From Oscillospiraceae bacterium (GTDB taxonomy: Bacteria > Bacillota > Clostridia > Oscillospirales > Ruminococcaceae): a DNA stretch of 40,177 nucleotides. The notes beneath the pieces were generated by a model that saw nothing but the letters and a program-made list of their open reading frames with translations, had not been told where the DNA came from and searched no databases. The position numbers and the translations under genes were made by a program. Position 1 is the first letter of the stretch. Every line of letters begins with the position of its first letter. The stretch is from contig JAFTXQ010000016.1 in NCBI GenBank assembly GCA_017461565.1, forward strand, positions 1 to 40,177, written 5' to 3'. This document shows positions 1,816 through 35,315 of the stretch, one piece after another.

Positions 1816-2100
1816 AACAAAACGGCGCAGGATCTATCCTGCGCCGTTCATGTTATTCAGTTGCCGTATCAAGCCTTGGGAGTTCCGTAAACAGTTGCGG
1901 ATGCTGCCTTCCATGTGCCGTTCACAAATGCCTTTACTCGGAATGAGTACTTTGTTCCGTTTGTAAGACCTGTGAATGTGTAGGATGTGCCTGTAACTGC
2001 GTTGGACTTGCATACATAAGCGCCGTTTTCAAGCATGTATACAGCGTACTTTGTAGCGCCGTTTACTGCGTTCCAACTCATTGTTACTGTGCCGTTGCCG
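1816..2100 (-). repeat. Right arm of the inverted repeat (Fn3 end plus terminator)
   Basis: Reverse-strand counterpart of 1-283. It encodes the last Fn3 module of the 1260-residue protein and its terminator. The first 50 or so residues of the two partial modules are identical; a block near the end has diverged (TTYNFKVKAY against TKYSFRVKAF), and identity resumes at the stop codon and through the terminator. Confidence 0.8.
1819..1848 (-). terminator. Terminator of the minus-strand LRR gene; shared by both convergent genes
   Basis: 12-bp perfect stem (1821-1832 / 1837-1848) with a 4-nt loop. Read on the minus strand it ends in TTTT, and it is the copy of the terminator at 251-281. Being symmetric, it can also stop transcription arriving from the 418-1800 gene. 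Confidence 0.85.
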
Positions 2101-2945
2101 CCTGTTGTCTTTATGTTCTCAGGGATCACGGATGTGGAAGCCGAAGCCGTGGGAGTTCCGTAAACAGTTGCGGATGCTGCCTTCCATGCACCGTTCACAA
2201 ATGCCTTTACTCGGAAGCTATACTGTGTTCCGTTTGTAAGACCTGTGAATGTGTAGGATGTTCCTGTAACAGCGTTGCTTTTGCATACATAAGAGCCGTT
2301 CTGGAGCATATAAACTGCGTACTTTGTGGCGCCTGTTACTGCGTTCCAGCTCATTGTTACTGTGCCGTTGCCGCCTGTTGTCTTTATGTTCTCAGGGATA
2401 ACGGATGTGGAAGCAGATGCTACAGGAGTTCCGCTAACTGCGGCGGAAGCTGTCTTCCATGCGCCGTTCACATAAGCCTTTACTCTGAAGTTGTATGTTG
2501 TGCCGTTTGTAAGACCTGTGAAGGTGTAGGATGTGCCTGTTACAGCGTTGGACTTGCAAACGTAAGAACCGTTCTGGAGCATGTAAACTGCATACTTTGT
2601 AGCACCTGTTACTGCGTTCCATGTCATGGTTACCTTGCTGTCGCCTGCTGTGGTCTTGATGTTCTCGGGGATAACAGAAGCACCGGTGGGTGTGGCATAA
2701 ACGATCGCAGAAGCGGCGCTCCATGTACCGTTTACGTAAGATTTTACCTTGAAGCCGTACTTTGTGCCGCCTGTCAGTCCTGTTACTGTGTAGGATGTAC
2801 CAGTAACTGCACTGGACTTACAGGTATAAACGCCGTTGTCATAAAGATATACTGCGTATTTTGTTGCGCCTTTCACAGCGTCCCATGCTACTGTCACCTT
2901 GCCGTCGCCTGCGGTGGTCTTGATATTTGCGGGGGCAACAGGCTC
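1869..2945 (-). repeat. Four tandem Fn3-coding units
   Basis: Four units of about 260-280 bp encode the Fn3 modules. The last three, nearest 1869, share long identical DNA stretches such as the code for NAVTGATKYAVYML and KSNAVTGTSYTFTGL. The first unit, near 2690-2945, is more diverged (YLYDNGVYTCKSSAV). The pattern suggests recent duplication or gene conversion. Confidence 0.85.
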
Positions 2946-5651
2946 GGGGATGTCGATAACCAGTGTGAATGTTACTGTATTATCGTTGCCTGCATCGTAA
3001 TCGTATGTTACGGTGTCGGCTGTGATATTCTTAAGAGAGTTTGTTGCGGAGTCGTAAGTTGCGCCTGTCCAGTTGCTTGCCTTGGCAGGGTCGAAGCCGT
3101 AGGGCTTGAGCTCGTTGAGGGAGGAGGTGGTGAGGGTGTAGGAGTTGGAATCGCAATCCAAACCATAATACAACAGTTCAGGATTTTGGCTTATATCAAT
3201 ACTTGTCAGCTGATTGTTGCTGCACCATAATGATGAAAGTGCAGGATTGTTACTTGGGTCAATACTTGTGAGCTGGTTATCGTCACACCATAACCATTTC
3301 AATGCAGTATTCTTGCTTACGTCAAGACTTGTGAGTTGATTTTCGCAACAAAATAAATTTATTAGTGTAGTATTCTTACTTACATCAAGATTTGTAAGCC
3401 GATTGCTATTACACTCCAATATTTCCAGTGCGATATTTTTATTTAAATCAAGACTTGTGAGTTGGTTATTACTACAATACAAATTTATTAATGCAGTGTT
3501 ATAACTTACATTAAGAGCTGTTAAATTATTTGAAGCGCAATTCAATTCTTCAAGTGCAGTATTTTTGCTTACATCAAGATTTGTAAATTGGTTGCCATCA
3601 CAATCAAGCCATCTCAATTTAGTATTATTGCTAAGATCAAGACCGGTTAACTGATTGTTTGCGCAATACAGCAGTAACAATTCAATGTTATCGCTTAAAT
3701 CAATACTGGTAAATCGATTATCGGAACATAGCAATCTCATCAACACAGTATTTTTGCTTAGATCAATATCGGTAAGCTGATTACCAACACAAGACAACAA
3801 TTGCAGTACCAGATTGTTGCTCACATCCAGACTTGTGAATTCATTAGCGTTACAGTTAAAAGTTTTCAGTACAGAGTTCTTGCTTAAGTCAATACTTGTC
3901 AGTTGATTATAGCCACATCCTAAATTTGTCAACGATGTGTTTTTGCTTACATTCAGACTTGTAAGTTTATTATGTCCGCATGACAATTGTTCTAATGCAG
4001 TACAGCCACTCACATCAAGGCTGACAAGCTCATTGCTTTCACAAAACAATTCTGTTAATTCAGTACAACCACTTATATTAAGTTTATTTATCTGATTAGA
4101 GCTGCACTCTGCGTATTCTATTAAAATATTATTGCTCAGGTCCAAACTCGTTAAACTATTGTGCCTACACATCAGTCTTGTTAGTTTGGTATTTTTGCTA
4201 AGATCCAGTTCTGTCAGCGGAGAATTTTCACATATCAAAATCGTCAGTTCTGTGTTCTTGCTTAAATCAAGATTCTCAATTAAATTACCGCTACATGATA
4301 AGCTTTGCAACTTAATGAAATATTCCAAGCCAACAAGGCTGGAAATTCTTTGATTTGTAACATCAATCCTCGTAACCGCACTTATCTCCTCATCAGTGAG
4401 AGTGCCGTTTGCGTCCTGATCCAGATTGTCCGCAACATAGGTTCTGAAGTTTGCGTCGGGGAAATTGGTCTCGTTGATAAGTACGCCCTCAATGCGCTCG
4501 TAATAATTCTTGCTGAGCGTAGGGTAATCGAATGTATATCCAGCATAATGATCGCCGTTTACATGGCTTGAAGAAAACTTGCCGGATGAAAAATGCTCGG
4601 GTATCTCGTCGGAGCCGATGAGGAAGAAGTCATAGTATACCTGACCCTGATCATCCCATGTACAGTCAACAGCGTACCAGCAGTTGTCGTCCATCTTGAC
4701 GTAATTCCACAGATGTGCGCCGCCGTTTGCTTTTCCGGGAACAAGGATATTGGGGATGCCGTAGCTGTCGCACAGCACCTTGAATCCCTTTGCATAGCCT
4801 GCGCATACTGTCAGTATTTCGCTGTCGCCGCCGACAGGGTAGAACGCAGAGTATGCGGTCTGATAAAGGCGGAGCTGTGCCTTGTCAGTAATAGTACCGT
4901 CTGCCGCATCATGATTGTATTCGATGTTTTCTGCGATATAGTCATGGATCTCCCTGACGGTATCGTATCTGTCCGCATTTGTCGGAAGCTCGGCGTTGAT
5001 AGCCGTCTGAGCCTTGCTTACGGCATTGGTAATGTCGGAAGGCGTACCCGAGTCGGTACAGTTTGTTTTAAAGTAGAAAGTAGGTGTATATACTACTGTG
5101 ACCTCCTGAGAGGATACGCCGGACTCGTATTCGGGTATGCTCCTGCTTGCACCCAACAGGAGGTCAGAGTTTACAAGCCAGCTCAGCTCAGGGTGATCGT
5201 ATATCACTGCGCCTAAAGCGGGGGAATAGACGGTTTTATACCATGCAAAGAACTGATCGTCTGCTGTCTGAGGGATATTTATCGTGTTGTTTGAGATGGT
5301 TATAGTGACGTTTTCGATGGTGTGTTCTTCATCAAGTTTATGTACCTCGAGATCAGTGCCATCCGAATAAACATCCAGTATCATCTCGTAAAATTCCAAA
5401 GAAGCGTCATCAAGTTGTGTGCTGTAGGAAGATCCGCTGAAAACAGCGTCGTCTGCGATTCCGTAGAAATAGGGTGCCTCTGAAGCGAGCATCTCTGAAA
5501 CATTGACCTCGATAGGCTCTAATGTCAGCACTGCGGAAGCATCTTCCTGCGCATAAGCGGAAACACCTGCCGAAGCAATGCAGAACGACGAAGCCATCAC
5601 AGTCAGTCCGATAAGGATGCGCCTGATAATTGACTTGTTTTTCGTATCCAT
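1869..5651 (-). CDS. Secreted transglutaminase-like / EF-loop / LRR / four-Fn3 protein
   Basis: A 1260-residue protein with a GGAGG site 9 nt before ATG. The signal peptide probably ends near residue 34 (SAYA). Residues of about 225-335 form a transglutaminase/protease-like core with Cys283 (VCAGYAKGF), His313 (GGAHLWNYV) and Asp329 (YAVDCTWDD) in the usual order of the catalytic triad. A FPDANFRTYV module carries one EF loop (D411-x-D413-x-N415-G). About 18 leucine-rich repeats of 21 residues follow from about 435 to 840, nearly all with Cys in the L-x-C-x-x-N position. Four Fn3 modules end the protein; the last three are nearly identical. In this superfamily the triad supports cross-linking, hydrolysis or only binding, so the activity is uncertain. 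The protein is probably extracellular. No anchor is seen. Confidence 0.92.
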   Translation of the reverse strand: MDTKNKSIIRRILIGLTVMASSFCIASAGVSAYAQEDASAVLTLEPIEVNVSEMLASEAPYFYGIADDAVFSGSSYSTQLDDASLEFYEMILDVYSDGTDLEVHKLDEEHTIENVTITISNNTINIPQTADDQFFAWYKTVYSPALGAVIYDHPELSWLVNSDLLLGASRSIPEYESGVSSQEVTVVYTPTFYFKTNCTDSGTPSDITNAVSKAQTAINAELPTNADRYDTVREIHDYIAENIEYNHDAADGTITDKAQLRLYQTAYSAFYPVGGDSEILTVCAGYAKGFKVLCDSYGIPNILVPGKANGGAHLWNYVKMDDNCWYAVDCTWDDQGQVYYDFFLIGSDEIPEHFSSGKFSSSHVNGDHYAGYTFDYPTLSKNYYERIEGVLINETNFPDANFRTYVADNLDQDANGTLTDEEISAVTRIDVTNQRISSLVGLEYFIKLQSLSCSGNLIENLDLSKNTELTILICENSPLTELDLSKNTKLTRLMCRHNSLTSLDLSNNILIEYAECSSNQINKLNISGCTELTELFCESNELVSLDVSGCTALEQLSCGHNKLTSLNVSKNTSLTNLGCGYNQLTSIDLSKNSVLKTFNCNANEFTSLDVSNNLVLQLLSCVGNQLTDIDLSKNTVLMRLLCSDNRFTSIDLSDNIELLLLYCANNQLTGLDLSNNTKLRWLDCDGNQFTNLDVSKNTALEELNCASNNLTALNVSYNTALINLYCSNNQLTSLDLNKNIALEILECNSNRLTNLDVSKNTTLINLFCCENQLTSLDVSKNTALKWLWCDDNQLTSIDPSNNPALSSLWCSNNQLTSIDISQNPELLYYGLDCDSNSYTLTTSSLNELKPYGFDPAKASNWTGATYDSATNSLKNITADTVTYDYDAGNDNTVTFTLVIDIPEPVAPANIKTTAGDGKVTVAWDAVKGATKYAVYLYDNGVYTCKSSAVTGTSYTVTGLTGGTKYGFKVKSYVNGTWSAASAIVYATPTGASVIPENIKTTAGDSKVTMTWNAVTGATKYAVYMLQNGSYVCKSNAVTGTSYTFTGLTNGTTYNFRVKAYVNGAWKTASAAVSGTPVASASTSVIPENIKTTGGNGTVTMSWNAVTGATKYAVYMLQNGSYVCKSNAVTGTSYTFTGLTNGTQYSFRVKAFVNGAWKAASATVYGTPTASASTSVIPENIKTTGGNGTVTMSWNAVNGATKYAVYMLENGAYVCKSNAVTGTSYTFTGLTNGTKYSFRVKAFVNGTWKAASATVYGTPKA

Positions 5652-33245: not shown

Positions 33246-33274
33246 TTGAAATTTATTAAAAGATATGGTATACT
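33246..33274 (+). promoter_or_regulatory. Promoter of the GS[FY]-repeat / glycosyltransferase operon
   Basis: TTGAAA (33246-33251), 17-bp spacer, TATACT (33269-33274) with a TGG extension. The start site falls near 33281, giving a leader of about 30 nt with TTGGAGGAAG before ATG 33312. Confidence 0.82.
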
Positions 33275-33311: not shown

Positions 33312-34127
33312 ATGGATTGTGCTTTATGGCTTAACAAAAAGAAGATCTATTCGGCAGATGAGATCGCCGATAACTTCGACATAGCTGCTATCCGTGGATA
33401 TTTCCTCGGGGGTAGCCTGATAAAATGGCTTTCTTCCCACGGGGGAGAAGAGCTTGCGAGGGAGCTTTCCAACGTGCTCCCCGATGAGCCATGCCTTAAT
33501 GACCGTCTGAGCGGTATTTTTCTGGAAAAGAAGTGCGATGTGCCTGTCCACAGGACGGATGAAAACGTTGTTGCGGCGGTGGAGCGCTTCAGAAGCAATG
33601 CAGCACCTCAGCCCTCTGTAACAGGAAGCTTTGCTTCAACAAGTTCTTTTTCGGGAAGCTTTTCTTTCGGCAGCTTTGGTTTTGGCATAACGGCGGCAAA
33701 CGGTTCTTTCGGCTATGGTAGCTATTCTCTCAGCTCATTCAATCGTGGCAGCTTCTCCAATGCGTGGCAGTGGGAGTGGGAATGGTACTTGGGCTCTTTC
33801 AGAAAAGGCTCGTTCCGCTATGGTATGACAAGCTTCGGCGGGTCTTATGCGTATAATTTCGGCTTATATCGTTTCGGCTCTTTCGATTATGGCTCATTTA
33901 ATTATGGTTCTTTCGGCTACGGATCGTATCCCTATGGGAAAGGCTCCTTCCGCTTTGGCGGTCCTTTTGCTTCGGGCGAGGCTTTATTGTTCGGCTCTTA
34001 CAGAGGGGTTCCTATGTCAGGCGGCAGTTTCCGCTGCATCTCCTCGGACGAGTACGACGAGATAATGTACCGCACTCTCGGTATGTGTCCGTTAAATCGA
34101 TTCGGCTATGGCATACATCTGATATGA
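33312..34127 (+). CDS. GS[FY]-pentapeptide-repeat protein with helical N-terminal domain
   Basis: 271 residues. ATG 33312 follows TTGGAGG; an in-frame GTG at 33288 precedes that site and is rejected. Residues 1-95 form a compact, mostly helical domain with NFDIAAIRGYFLGGSLIKWL at 21-40. Residues of about 104-240 are low complexity: some 15-16 copies of Gly-Ser-Phe/Tyr, mostly on a five-residue grid (G-S-F-x-Y), clearest at 189-208. A Trp-rich insert (W152, W154, W156, W158) interrupts them. The period suits a pentapeptide-repeat beta-helix, but the consensus is not the classical A-D/N-L-x-x. There is no signal peptide or transmembrane helix. The glycosyltransferase-like gene begins 7 nt downstream. 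I do not recognise a named family. Confidence 0.85.
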   Translation: MDCALWLNKKKIYSADEIADNFDIAAIRGYFLGGSLIKWLSSHGGEELARELSNVLPDEPCLNDRLSGIFLEKKCDVPVHRTDENVVAAVERFRSNAAPQPSVTGSFASTSSFSGSFSFGSFGFGITAANGSFGYGSYSLSSFNRGSFSNAWQWEWEWYLGSFRKGSFRYGMTSFGGSYAYNFGLYRFGSFDYGSFNYGSFGYGSYPYGKGSFRFGGPFASGEALLFGSYRGVPMSGGSFRCISSDEYDEIMYRTLGMCPLNRFGYGIHLI

Positions 34128-34134
34128 GGTATTT

Positions 34135-34971
34135 ATGAACGCTATTCATATAATTTCCACCGCTCCGTTTTTTGCAAAGAAAAGCGGAGCTTTTTTTCAG
34201 GAGGATTTCGACCTTTACTGCACCGTGCTTTCTGCGTTAAGCTGGAGGAAGCATAACGGTGATATTTCGCTTTATACCGATACCGCAGGTGCGGAGTATT
34301 ATAACAGGATCGGACTTTGCGACATCTGGAATGAGGTGCGCATCTGTATTCCCGATGATCTTGAGGGGATCGACCCGCAGATGTTCTGGGCAGGCGGCAA
34401 GCTTTTCGCTTTGCGTGAGGCAGAGGCACCCTGCGCTATGATCGACACCGATATGATAATATGGAACGAGCTTCCTCTTGGAAAGGAGCTTGTAGCGGCG
34501 CATAGGGAGGAGATATATCCCGATATTTATCCTCCTGTTTCCTACTTTCGTCTTAAGGATCACATTCTGCCACCATTTGATGAGAGCATACTTCCGCTGA
34601 ATACAGCATTTCTGTATCTTCCCGACAATGATTTCAAGGAGTTTTATACTTCTCAAGCGATAGCTTTTATGAAATCATCCGTACCCTGTGATGACAGGCT
34701 GTGCTATATGGTGTTTGCTGAGCAGCGTATGGCGGCTATGTGTGCCGAATACACAGGAACCCCTGTAAAGACGCTGCTTGACAAGGATCATTTGTTCTTT
34801 CCGCAGGATGATGTCACTCATCTGTGGGGCGCAAAGCAGGTTATGAGAGATAAGCCCGAGCTTCGCAGCGACTTCTGCCGCAAAGCGGCTCAGCGCATAC
34901 GCAGTGAGTTTCCTGACTATGCCTATACAGTGGATATCATAGAGGGACAATCCGCAGTTTCGTCAAATTAA
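34135..34971 (+). CDS. Glycosyltransferase-like protein (DUF6734-type)
   Basis: 278 residues; the upstream stop codon is part of its TGAGGT ribosome binding site, so the two genes are translationally coupled. A GT-A-like layout is visible: an N-terminal beta-strand (AIHIISTAPF), a YTDT segment, an acidic D104-T-D106 (CAMIDTDMIIW) in the position of the metal-binding DxD of nucleotide-sugar transferases, and a late His/Trp motif (THLWGAKQ). The resemblance to DUF6734 is from memory. No membrane segment: a cytoplasmic enzyme. Its obvious candidate substrate is the Ser-rich repeat protein encoded just upstream, which is inference. Confidence 0.8.
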   Translation: MNAIHIISTAPFFAKKSGAFFQEDFDLYCTVLSALSWRKHNGDISLYTDTAGAEYYNRIGLCDIWNEVRICIPDDLEGIDPQMFWAGGKLFALREAEAPCAMIDTDMIIWNELPLGKELVAAHREEIYPDIYPPVSYFRLKDHILPPFDESILPLNTAFLYLPDNDFKEFYTSQAIAFMKSSVPCDDRLCYMVFAEQRMAAMCAEYTGTPVKTLLDKDHLFFPQDDVTHLWGAKQVMRDKPELRSDFCRKAAQRIRSEFPDYAYTVDIIEGQSAVSSN

Positions 34972-35006: not shown

Positions 35007-35035
35007 TAGACATTTTCAAACTGTTGTGATATAAT
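35007..35035 (+). promoter_or_regulatory. Promoter of the small four-Cys protein
   Basis: TAGACA (35007-35012), 17-bp spacer, TATAAT (35030-35035). Leader about 57 nt, ending in GGAGG. Confidence 0.85.
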
Positions 35036-35099: not shown

Positions 35100-35315
35100 A
35101 TGGCTAAGAAGAAGCTGTTCGGCAATAATATTAAGCCGTCCTGCAAATACTGCGAGCTTGGTACAGCAGGTGAGGGCGACAAGATCATGTGCTCTAAGTT
35201 TGGTCCTGTAAAAACCTACGACTCCTGCAAGAAGTTTGTTTACTCTCCTCTTAAGAGGGTTCCCAAGAAGGAGCTTCAGCTTGCAAACTCCGCTGTAAAC
35301 GATATCGATTTCTGA
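35100..35315 (+). CDS. Small four-cysteine (zinc-ribbon-like) protein
   Basis: 71 residues from ATG 35100, with GGAGG 8 nt upstream; an in-frame start at 35085 overlaps the binding site. The N-terminus is basic (MAKKKLFG), followed by CKYC and two more Cys (MCSKFG, YDSCKKF), the spacing of a small metal-binding knuckle, then a basic linker and polar end. It may bind zinc and RNA or protein; function unknown. It has its own strong promoter and terminator, which argues for a real, well-expressed monocistronic gene. Confidence 0.8.
   Translation: MAKKKLFGNNIKPSCKYCELGTAGEGDKIMCSKFGPVKTYDSCKKFVYSPLKRVPKKELQLANSAVNDIDF

Follow-up and report, generated by a model that had tools for sequence, protein, structure and literature searches.

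Gene organization at the locus

We analysed a 40,177-nucleotide stretch of DNA from an Oscillospiraceae bacterium (contig JAFTXQ010000016.1, assembly GCA_017461565.1; hereafter the window), and focus here on two adjacent genes on its forward strand. The upstream gene encodes a serine-rich repeat protein that ends in a short C-terminal motif, which we call the tag, and the downstream gene encodes a predicted glycosyltransferase resembling the uncharacterised Pfam family DUF6734. A first-pass annotation of this DNA had reported a 7-nt gap between the genes, a ribosome binding site within the upstream stop and a D-T-D motif in the downstream protein, and all three were confirmed; the ribosome binding site is a TGAGG that overlaps the stop codon. 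Beyond that annotation, we noticed the tag GYGIHLI (the C-terminus of the protein reads ...CPLNRFGYGIHLI), the alternating stretch WQWEWEW, and, among relatives, head domains and repeats that vary against a constant tag. Coordinates are collected in Table 1.

The repeat region contains 16 GS[FY] units at successive spacings of 10, 5, 11, 5, 10, 15, 5, 11, 12, 5, 5, 5, 7, 17 and 10 residues. The earlier count of 15-16 units was therefore accurate, and the five-residue grid that it described is frequent but not strict. When residues 96-245 were shuffled, 16 units were reached in 0/10,000 trials (maximum 7). When whole units were shuffled instead, the six spacing-5 pairs observed were reached in 15/10,000 trials, and the ten successive spacings divisible by five in 3/10,000. 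Thirteen different 9-nt sequences encode the 16 units, with all six Ser codons in use. Given this diversity of DNA spellings, the pattern is maintained by selection on the protein, rather than being a young DNA repeat.

Table 1. Features of the two-gene locus, in window coordinates
Feature	Position	Strand	Remarks
Promoter-like site TTGAAA-17-TATACT, TG before -10 (candidate)	33246..33274	+	consensus match and 4-sequence alignment
Tagged Ser-rich repeat protein	33312..34127	+	open reading frame (ORF), 271 aa
Head domain N1 (residues 1-95 of tagged protein)	33312..33596	+	relatives in 12/297 family genomes
Sixteen GS[FY] units, proposed acceptor region	33624..34031	+	residues 105-240
Alternating aromatic-acidic stretch WQWEWEW, amid GS[FY] units	33765..33785	+	
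C-terminal tag GYGIHLI, proposed docking signal	34104..34124	+	consensus GYG[IL]x[LIN][IV]
DUF6734-like glycosyltransferase (predicted)	34135..34971	+	278 aa; GT8-like predicted fold
D-T-D of DUF6734-like enzyme, residues 104-106	34444..34452	+	
T-H-L-W-G-A-K of DUF6734-like enzyme, residues 228-234	34816..34836	+	

A tagged partner accompanies the transferase

We surveyed overlapping samples of 297 family, 394 order, 391 class and 199 phylum genomes. The transferase was found in 15/297 family, 46/394 order and 20/391 class genomes, and the 71 genomes that contain it, which carry no habitat information, span six families (f1, f13, f14, f36, f65 and f76) of one class, Clostridia. The Pfam model itself (PF20508) matched in 1/199 phylum-sample genomes, the window's own, and in 0/14 controls. 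Three contigs from Oscillospiraceae metagenome-assembled genomes (MAGs; two from deer gut according to their titles, one of unstated source) brought the total to 74 loci.

A tagged partner was found in the genome for all 74 transferase loci, in agreement with the first-pass view that repeat protein and transferase form a pair. The partner lies upstream on the same strand in 68 loci, and within 50 nt in 64, of which 35 overlap by 1 or 4 nt; four other upstream partners are 682-1363 nt away, with other genes between (genomes G180, G291, G094 and G010). The one downstream partner is that of G364, where the tag lies 263 nt past the enzyme stop, after GS-rich sequence. Five loci, all from one genus, had no adjacent partner, and we predicted that their genomes would encode one elsewhere. 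A genome-wide tag search yielded nine pattern matches, and each of the five genomes did contain one tagged Ser-rich ORF away from the transferase (in G1003 this ORF is truncated at a contig end). Partner starts were taken as the first possible ones and may be too long; that of G348 is over-extended.

The association was also apparent from the side of the repeat protein. The first-pass annotation had asked whether homologues would be found mostly without the transferase gene, and ten of the 12 family genomes with relatives of residues 1-95 carry it. We considered and rejected carriage of this subfamily by phages (no phage match, and none in viral_contigs with either the enzyme profile or one repeat protein) and by plasmids (one distant plasmid hit only).

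Where the two genes are separated, the intervening genes encode DUF6709 proteins in G180 and G291 (scanned) and in G094 (by likeness), whereas G010 has an unscanned ORF there. In three genomes of the window's genus, the DUF6709-type proteins between the pair number one or two (L033:5206-5871 and L036:5003-6311, scanned; L035:5445-6750, by likeness).

A constant tag behind changing heads and repeats

Over the 74 partners, the tag consists of G, Y (73) or F (1), G, L/I, a variable and mostly polar residue (E, H, N, D, S or G), L/I/N and I/V, and it is C-terminal in 72. Searched as a strict tag-plus-stop DNA pattern, it matched in 42/394 order genomes, and 36 of these belong to the 46 that carry the transferase (Fisher's test 1.9e-39, uncorrected for kinship). 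Ten transferase genomes escaped the strict pattern; their tags, seen at the protein level, end in V, contain N or F, or are not terminal. Of the six matching genomes without the transferase, four read Trp for the stop and two have matches in proteins that are not Ser-rich, and the strict tag with a true stop occurs in 2/348 genomes lacking the enzyme. A reversed control pattern matched in 7/394 order genomes. We therefore rejected the possibility that the tag is a general bacterial C-terminal motif, since its six matches among the 348 enzyme-less genomes are at chance level. In the window's own genome, a single strict-pattern match accompanies a single transferase.

The heads, in contrast, are of at least five kinds, with tag and enzyme persisting throughout. 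Sorted by regular expression, the 74 partners comprise 22 with N1, 28 with N3 ('EIDGVVFDLDSY'), seven with N2 ('CDNxFxLP'), six with N5 ('LLLMFFNERCYTYLL'), three with N4 ('AGTAALTLV') and eight others, among them G986, which is N2 by alignment; the G637 and G1003 entries are truncated at contig ends. On a tree of 73 transferases (the enzyme of G015, cut by a contig end, was left out of the tree and of all residue counts), N1, N4 and N5 each occupy one side of a branch, N3 requires two changes (a truncated partner falls inside) and N2 requires six (short or unclassed partners among f36, with G011 apart). This distribution suggests that the enzyme and tag are old and that the heads have been swapped. 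It had been proposed in the first-pass annotation that the N-terminal domain docks the enzyme, and we reject this: unrelated heads serve the same enzyme family in other clades, the universal element is the C-terminal tag, and N1 also heads Sel1-like proteins in G158 and G288, the two of the 12 N1-containing family genomes where no transferase was found.

In G158 and G288, N1 heads four proteins (L047:3653-6067 and L048:2999-7669), and N2 follows it in three. By eye, three of the four are Sel1-repeat-like (one scanned: 15.2 against a cut-off of 30.7); the fourth contains an SH3 domain. Pfam recognised neither N1 nor N2 in the two of these proteins that were scanned.

The tails differ as well. 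Repeat types among the partners include GSFxx, TSYx, SSGSFR and (GS)n, and an aromatic-acidic alternation (YEYEYE and the like) is present in 26/74 (19 N1, 4 N2, 2 N3 and 1 unclassed). Few aromatics are present in the (GS)n tails of the N5 partners and of G011, which leaves Ser as what nearly every tail has in common. A five-residue helix, as envisaged earlier, was accordingly rejected as a general property, because other tails (TSYx, (GS)n, SSGSFR) have other periods. The repeats had also been called unlike the classical pentapeptide family. The window protein does share a five-residue GSFxx period with Pentapeptide_2 (PF01469), but it scores 15.8 bits against a cut-off of 26.4, and the claim stands for this copy. 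It fails for G258 (36.7 bits), the only one of 13 other partners scanned to pass the cut-off.

The predicted fold of the enzyme is GT8-like

The downstream protein matches DUF6734 with 44.1 bits (cut-off 27), its only Pfam match. Its predicted fold (pLDDT 94.6) is closest to the structures of glycogenin and LgtC, both GT8 enzymes, with about 11% identity in the structural alignment. D104 and D106 are invariant in 73/73 aligned relatives, as are T228, H229, W231, G232 and K234; the T-H-L-W-G-A-K sequence (H-x-x-G-x-K), near the C-terminus, resembles the metal-His motif found in the same region of GT8 enzymes. Thus, the original description of a DxD glycosyltransferase-like partner is borne out by a GT8-like predicted fold and an invariant DxD. 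Unlike glycogenin and LgtC, however, the enzyme is paired with a separate tagged protein. A DUF6734 member from Hymenobacter (517 aa) scores 293 bits and lies beside a small gene for a GG-leader-like peptide, with no tagged repeat partner seen beside it. Given the difference in score and gene context, the window enzyme appears to be only distantly related to the Hymenobacter protein.

A proposed intracellular glycosylation system

Based upon the pairing and the predicted fold, we hypothesize that the two genes form a dedicated intracellular protein-glycosylation system, in which the enzyme uses the tag as its docking site and attaches sugars to serines in the tail; we put the probability of this reading at roughly 60%. 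The downstream protein would be a metal-dependent, GT8-like nucleotide-sugar glycosyltransferase that recognises the upstream protein via its C-terminal GYG[IL]x[LIN][IV], and it would add sugars to Ser (perhaps also Thr) of the flexible Ser-rich tail before the tag. The earlier suggestion that the repeat serines are an array of acceptor sites is probably right, as Ser is what nearly all tails share. For the tag, docking seems likelier than a role as acceptor, because it contains no invariant nucleophile (its Tyr is Phe in G330). The variable head may join the multi-glycosylated tail to whatever that head binds, and the sugars could serve to keep a sticky, aromatic-rich tail soluble, or to set its self-assembly. 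In a hydropathy scan, no 19-residue window exceeded a mean of 1.6 in 73/74 partners (G348 was left out), and the modified protein is therefore probably cytoplasmic. More tentatively, and with the odds somewhat against it, the tag might be a portable glycosylation address for any head plus Ser-rich run, so that bacteria would have a mucin-like tail inside the cell, much as the FG repeats of nucleoporins carry O-GlcNAc.

Several points weigh against a tag-directed glycosylation system. Because the genomes are related, the counts do not represent independent events. In G010 and G364, ten and 34 residues, respectively, follow the tag, which is thus not terminal there. Tag position 5 does vary with residue 15 of the enzyme (H pairs with K in 20/22, and E with R in 24/25), yet this correlation comes down to no more than 3 to 4 independent contrasts and does not reach significance; we rejected it as an established link between tag and enzyme and regard it as suggestive only. 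The partners of G010 and G946 are tagged but have hardly any Ser repeat, which indicates that the repeats are not strictly required. Finally, comparison of the enzyme with the PDB by sequence gave nothing significant, and hhalign detected no match to the E. coli GT8 enzymes WaaO and WaaJ, or likewise to the control WaaG, which belongs to GT4. Direct sequence homology to the E. coli GT8 enzymes is thus undetectable in these comparisons, and kinship with GT8 rests on the predicted fold.

Alternative explanations

The repeat-poor partners of G010 and G946 would fit a scheme in which sugars are added to the tag itself, at the GYG tyrosine or the terminus, and the Ser-rich tail has some other job. 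Glycogenin glucosylates its own tyrosine, glycogenins are the nearest solved folds, and the tag is the most constant element of the partners. However, with Phe in place of Tyr in G330 and a single polar position that varies, the tag offers no fixed nucleophile, and nearly all partners have Ser-rich tails; we consider this scheme unlikely. Resemblance to glycogenin could also mean that the tagged protein is a primer, in effect half of a split glycogenin, for a storage or surface polysaccharide grown from the enzyme's first sugars. The C-terminus of glycogenin recruits glycogen synthase, and a C-terminal primer motif could recruit the enzyme here. Yet the window's own genome (92.8% complete) contains no GlgA that reaches the 328-bit family cut-off (two partial hits score 38 and 34), which weakens a glycogen-primer reading, and the neighbourhoods show no widely recurrent polysaccharide gene, making this explanation quite improbable. 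The lack of sequence similarity to characterised enzymes (PDB, WaaO, WaaJ) might instead indicate that the DUF6734-like protein binds its partner without catalysis, the pair being a structural complex, or that it acts on another target. Against this, 73 diverged proteins all retain the DxD and 29 other residues, H229, G232 and K234 among them, a degree of conservation typical of an active site, and we hold this last possibility to be very improbable.

The pair could also be RiPP-like (ribosomally synthesized and post-translationally modified peptide), with the repeat protein as precursor, the tag as follower, and a short glycosylated peptide that is cut out and exported. Some partners are indeed short, at about 61-81 aa (G946, G936 and G867), and DUF6734 genes on two Bacteroidota plasmids have bacteriocin-type surroundings (L117:7658-9494 and L188:6001-9542), with VKOR and TlpA at both loci and a lantibiotic dehydratase at one. 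The peptide next to the Hymenobacter gene has a GG-leader-like start, although its scores are below the cut-offs (TIGR04149, 21.3 vs 25; Bacteriocin_IIc, 17.3 vs 27.1). In contrast, 68/74 partners measure 120-330 aa with the starts called here, Sel1-like proteins carry heads N1 and N2 as well, and no GG leader was seen by eye in the window protein or the partner listing; the window protein, the only partner so scanned, matched no NCBIfam model at E up to 1. The flanks of 73 loci (1.5 to 7 kb, frequently shorter where contigs end) contain no third gene that is recurrent across families, exporter and leader-peptidase genes included: a site-2-protease-like ORF is present in 10/73 loci, all of f13 and next to an scpA-like gene, and four loci have an ABC ATPase (both by eye). 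A RiPP-like system is thus improbable.

Relation to known systems

The SRRP (serine-rich repeat protein) transferases GtfA/B and their gene order are a familiar precedent, and streptococcal SRRPs are exported via accessory Sec. SRRPs and the staphylococcal Sdr proteins (with SdgA/SdgB) are described as Ser-repeat proteins with their own transferases (PMC7661464, PMC3794999), and as wall-associated or exported (PMC5076819). The window pair similarly combines a Ser-repeat region with a dedicated transferase gene, which would act on it, but the tagged partners have no hydrophobic segment and end in a heptapeptide tag. Glycocins also unite a transferase with a ribosomal substrate. They differ in that no exporter or leader peptidase recurs here, most substrates exceed 120 aa, and the transferase belongs to a different family, the SunS-type enzyme of glycocins being GT2. 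A literature search that excluded most subscription papers found no paper naming DUF6734, and within the same limits none for the tag strings GYGLEL, GYGIHL and GYGLDL or for a combined search. The cassette is real and widespread, and is apparently an undescribed substrate-enzyme unit.

If our hypothesis is correct, bacteria would possess, in a two-gene cassette found in 46/394 order genomes, a new way of glycosylating proteins that relies on a genetically simple address tag. An uncharacterised Pfam family would thereby gain a function, repeat proteins that might pass for filler would be explained, and sugars could be placed on proteins of choice with a compact tool. Because of the tag, the question is directly testable, with one enzyme, one substrate and one short motif.

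Neighbouring genes and other features of the window

The widest cluster of neighbours among the 73 loci is an opposite-strand ORF beside the pair in 17, all from f13 but four genera (e.g. L089:2288-3523), followed by a TtcA-like ORF (named by eye) that is present in 12 loci, all from a single genus. A few generic genes (ABC ATPase, HAD-like, response regulator) were seen by eye in 4 to 8 loci from groups that have little in common.

The promoter-like stretch upstream of the pair is largely conserved in the three Oscillospiraceae MAG contigs, and we regard it as a candidate from its consensus match and the alignment. A terminator-like hairpin with a T run (34162-34190) lies inside the start of the transferase ORF and might reduce the amount of enzyme relative to substrate. 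Its 29-nt stem-loop is identical in the same three relatives, with a shorter T run in two; the hairpin is not shared by G240 and G180, of the window's genus, or by G204. On the 3' side of the pair, a small Cys-containing protein of 71 aa is encoded at 35100-35315, with its own promoter-like site at 35007-35035. At the other end of the window, two convergent genes (418-1800 and 1869-5651) encode leucine-rich-type repeats (SKNTALExLxxxxNQLTSIDV, by eye); their products have similar C-terminal fibronectin-like repeats and, again by eye, are apparently related copies.
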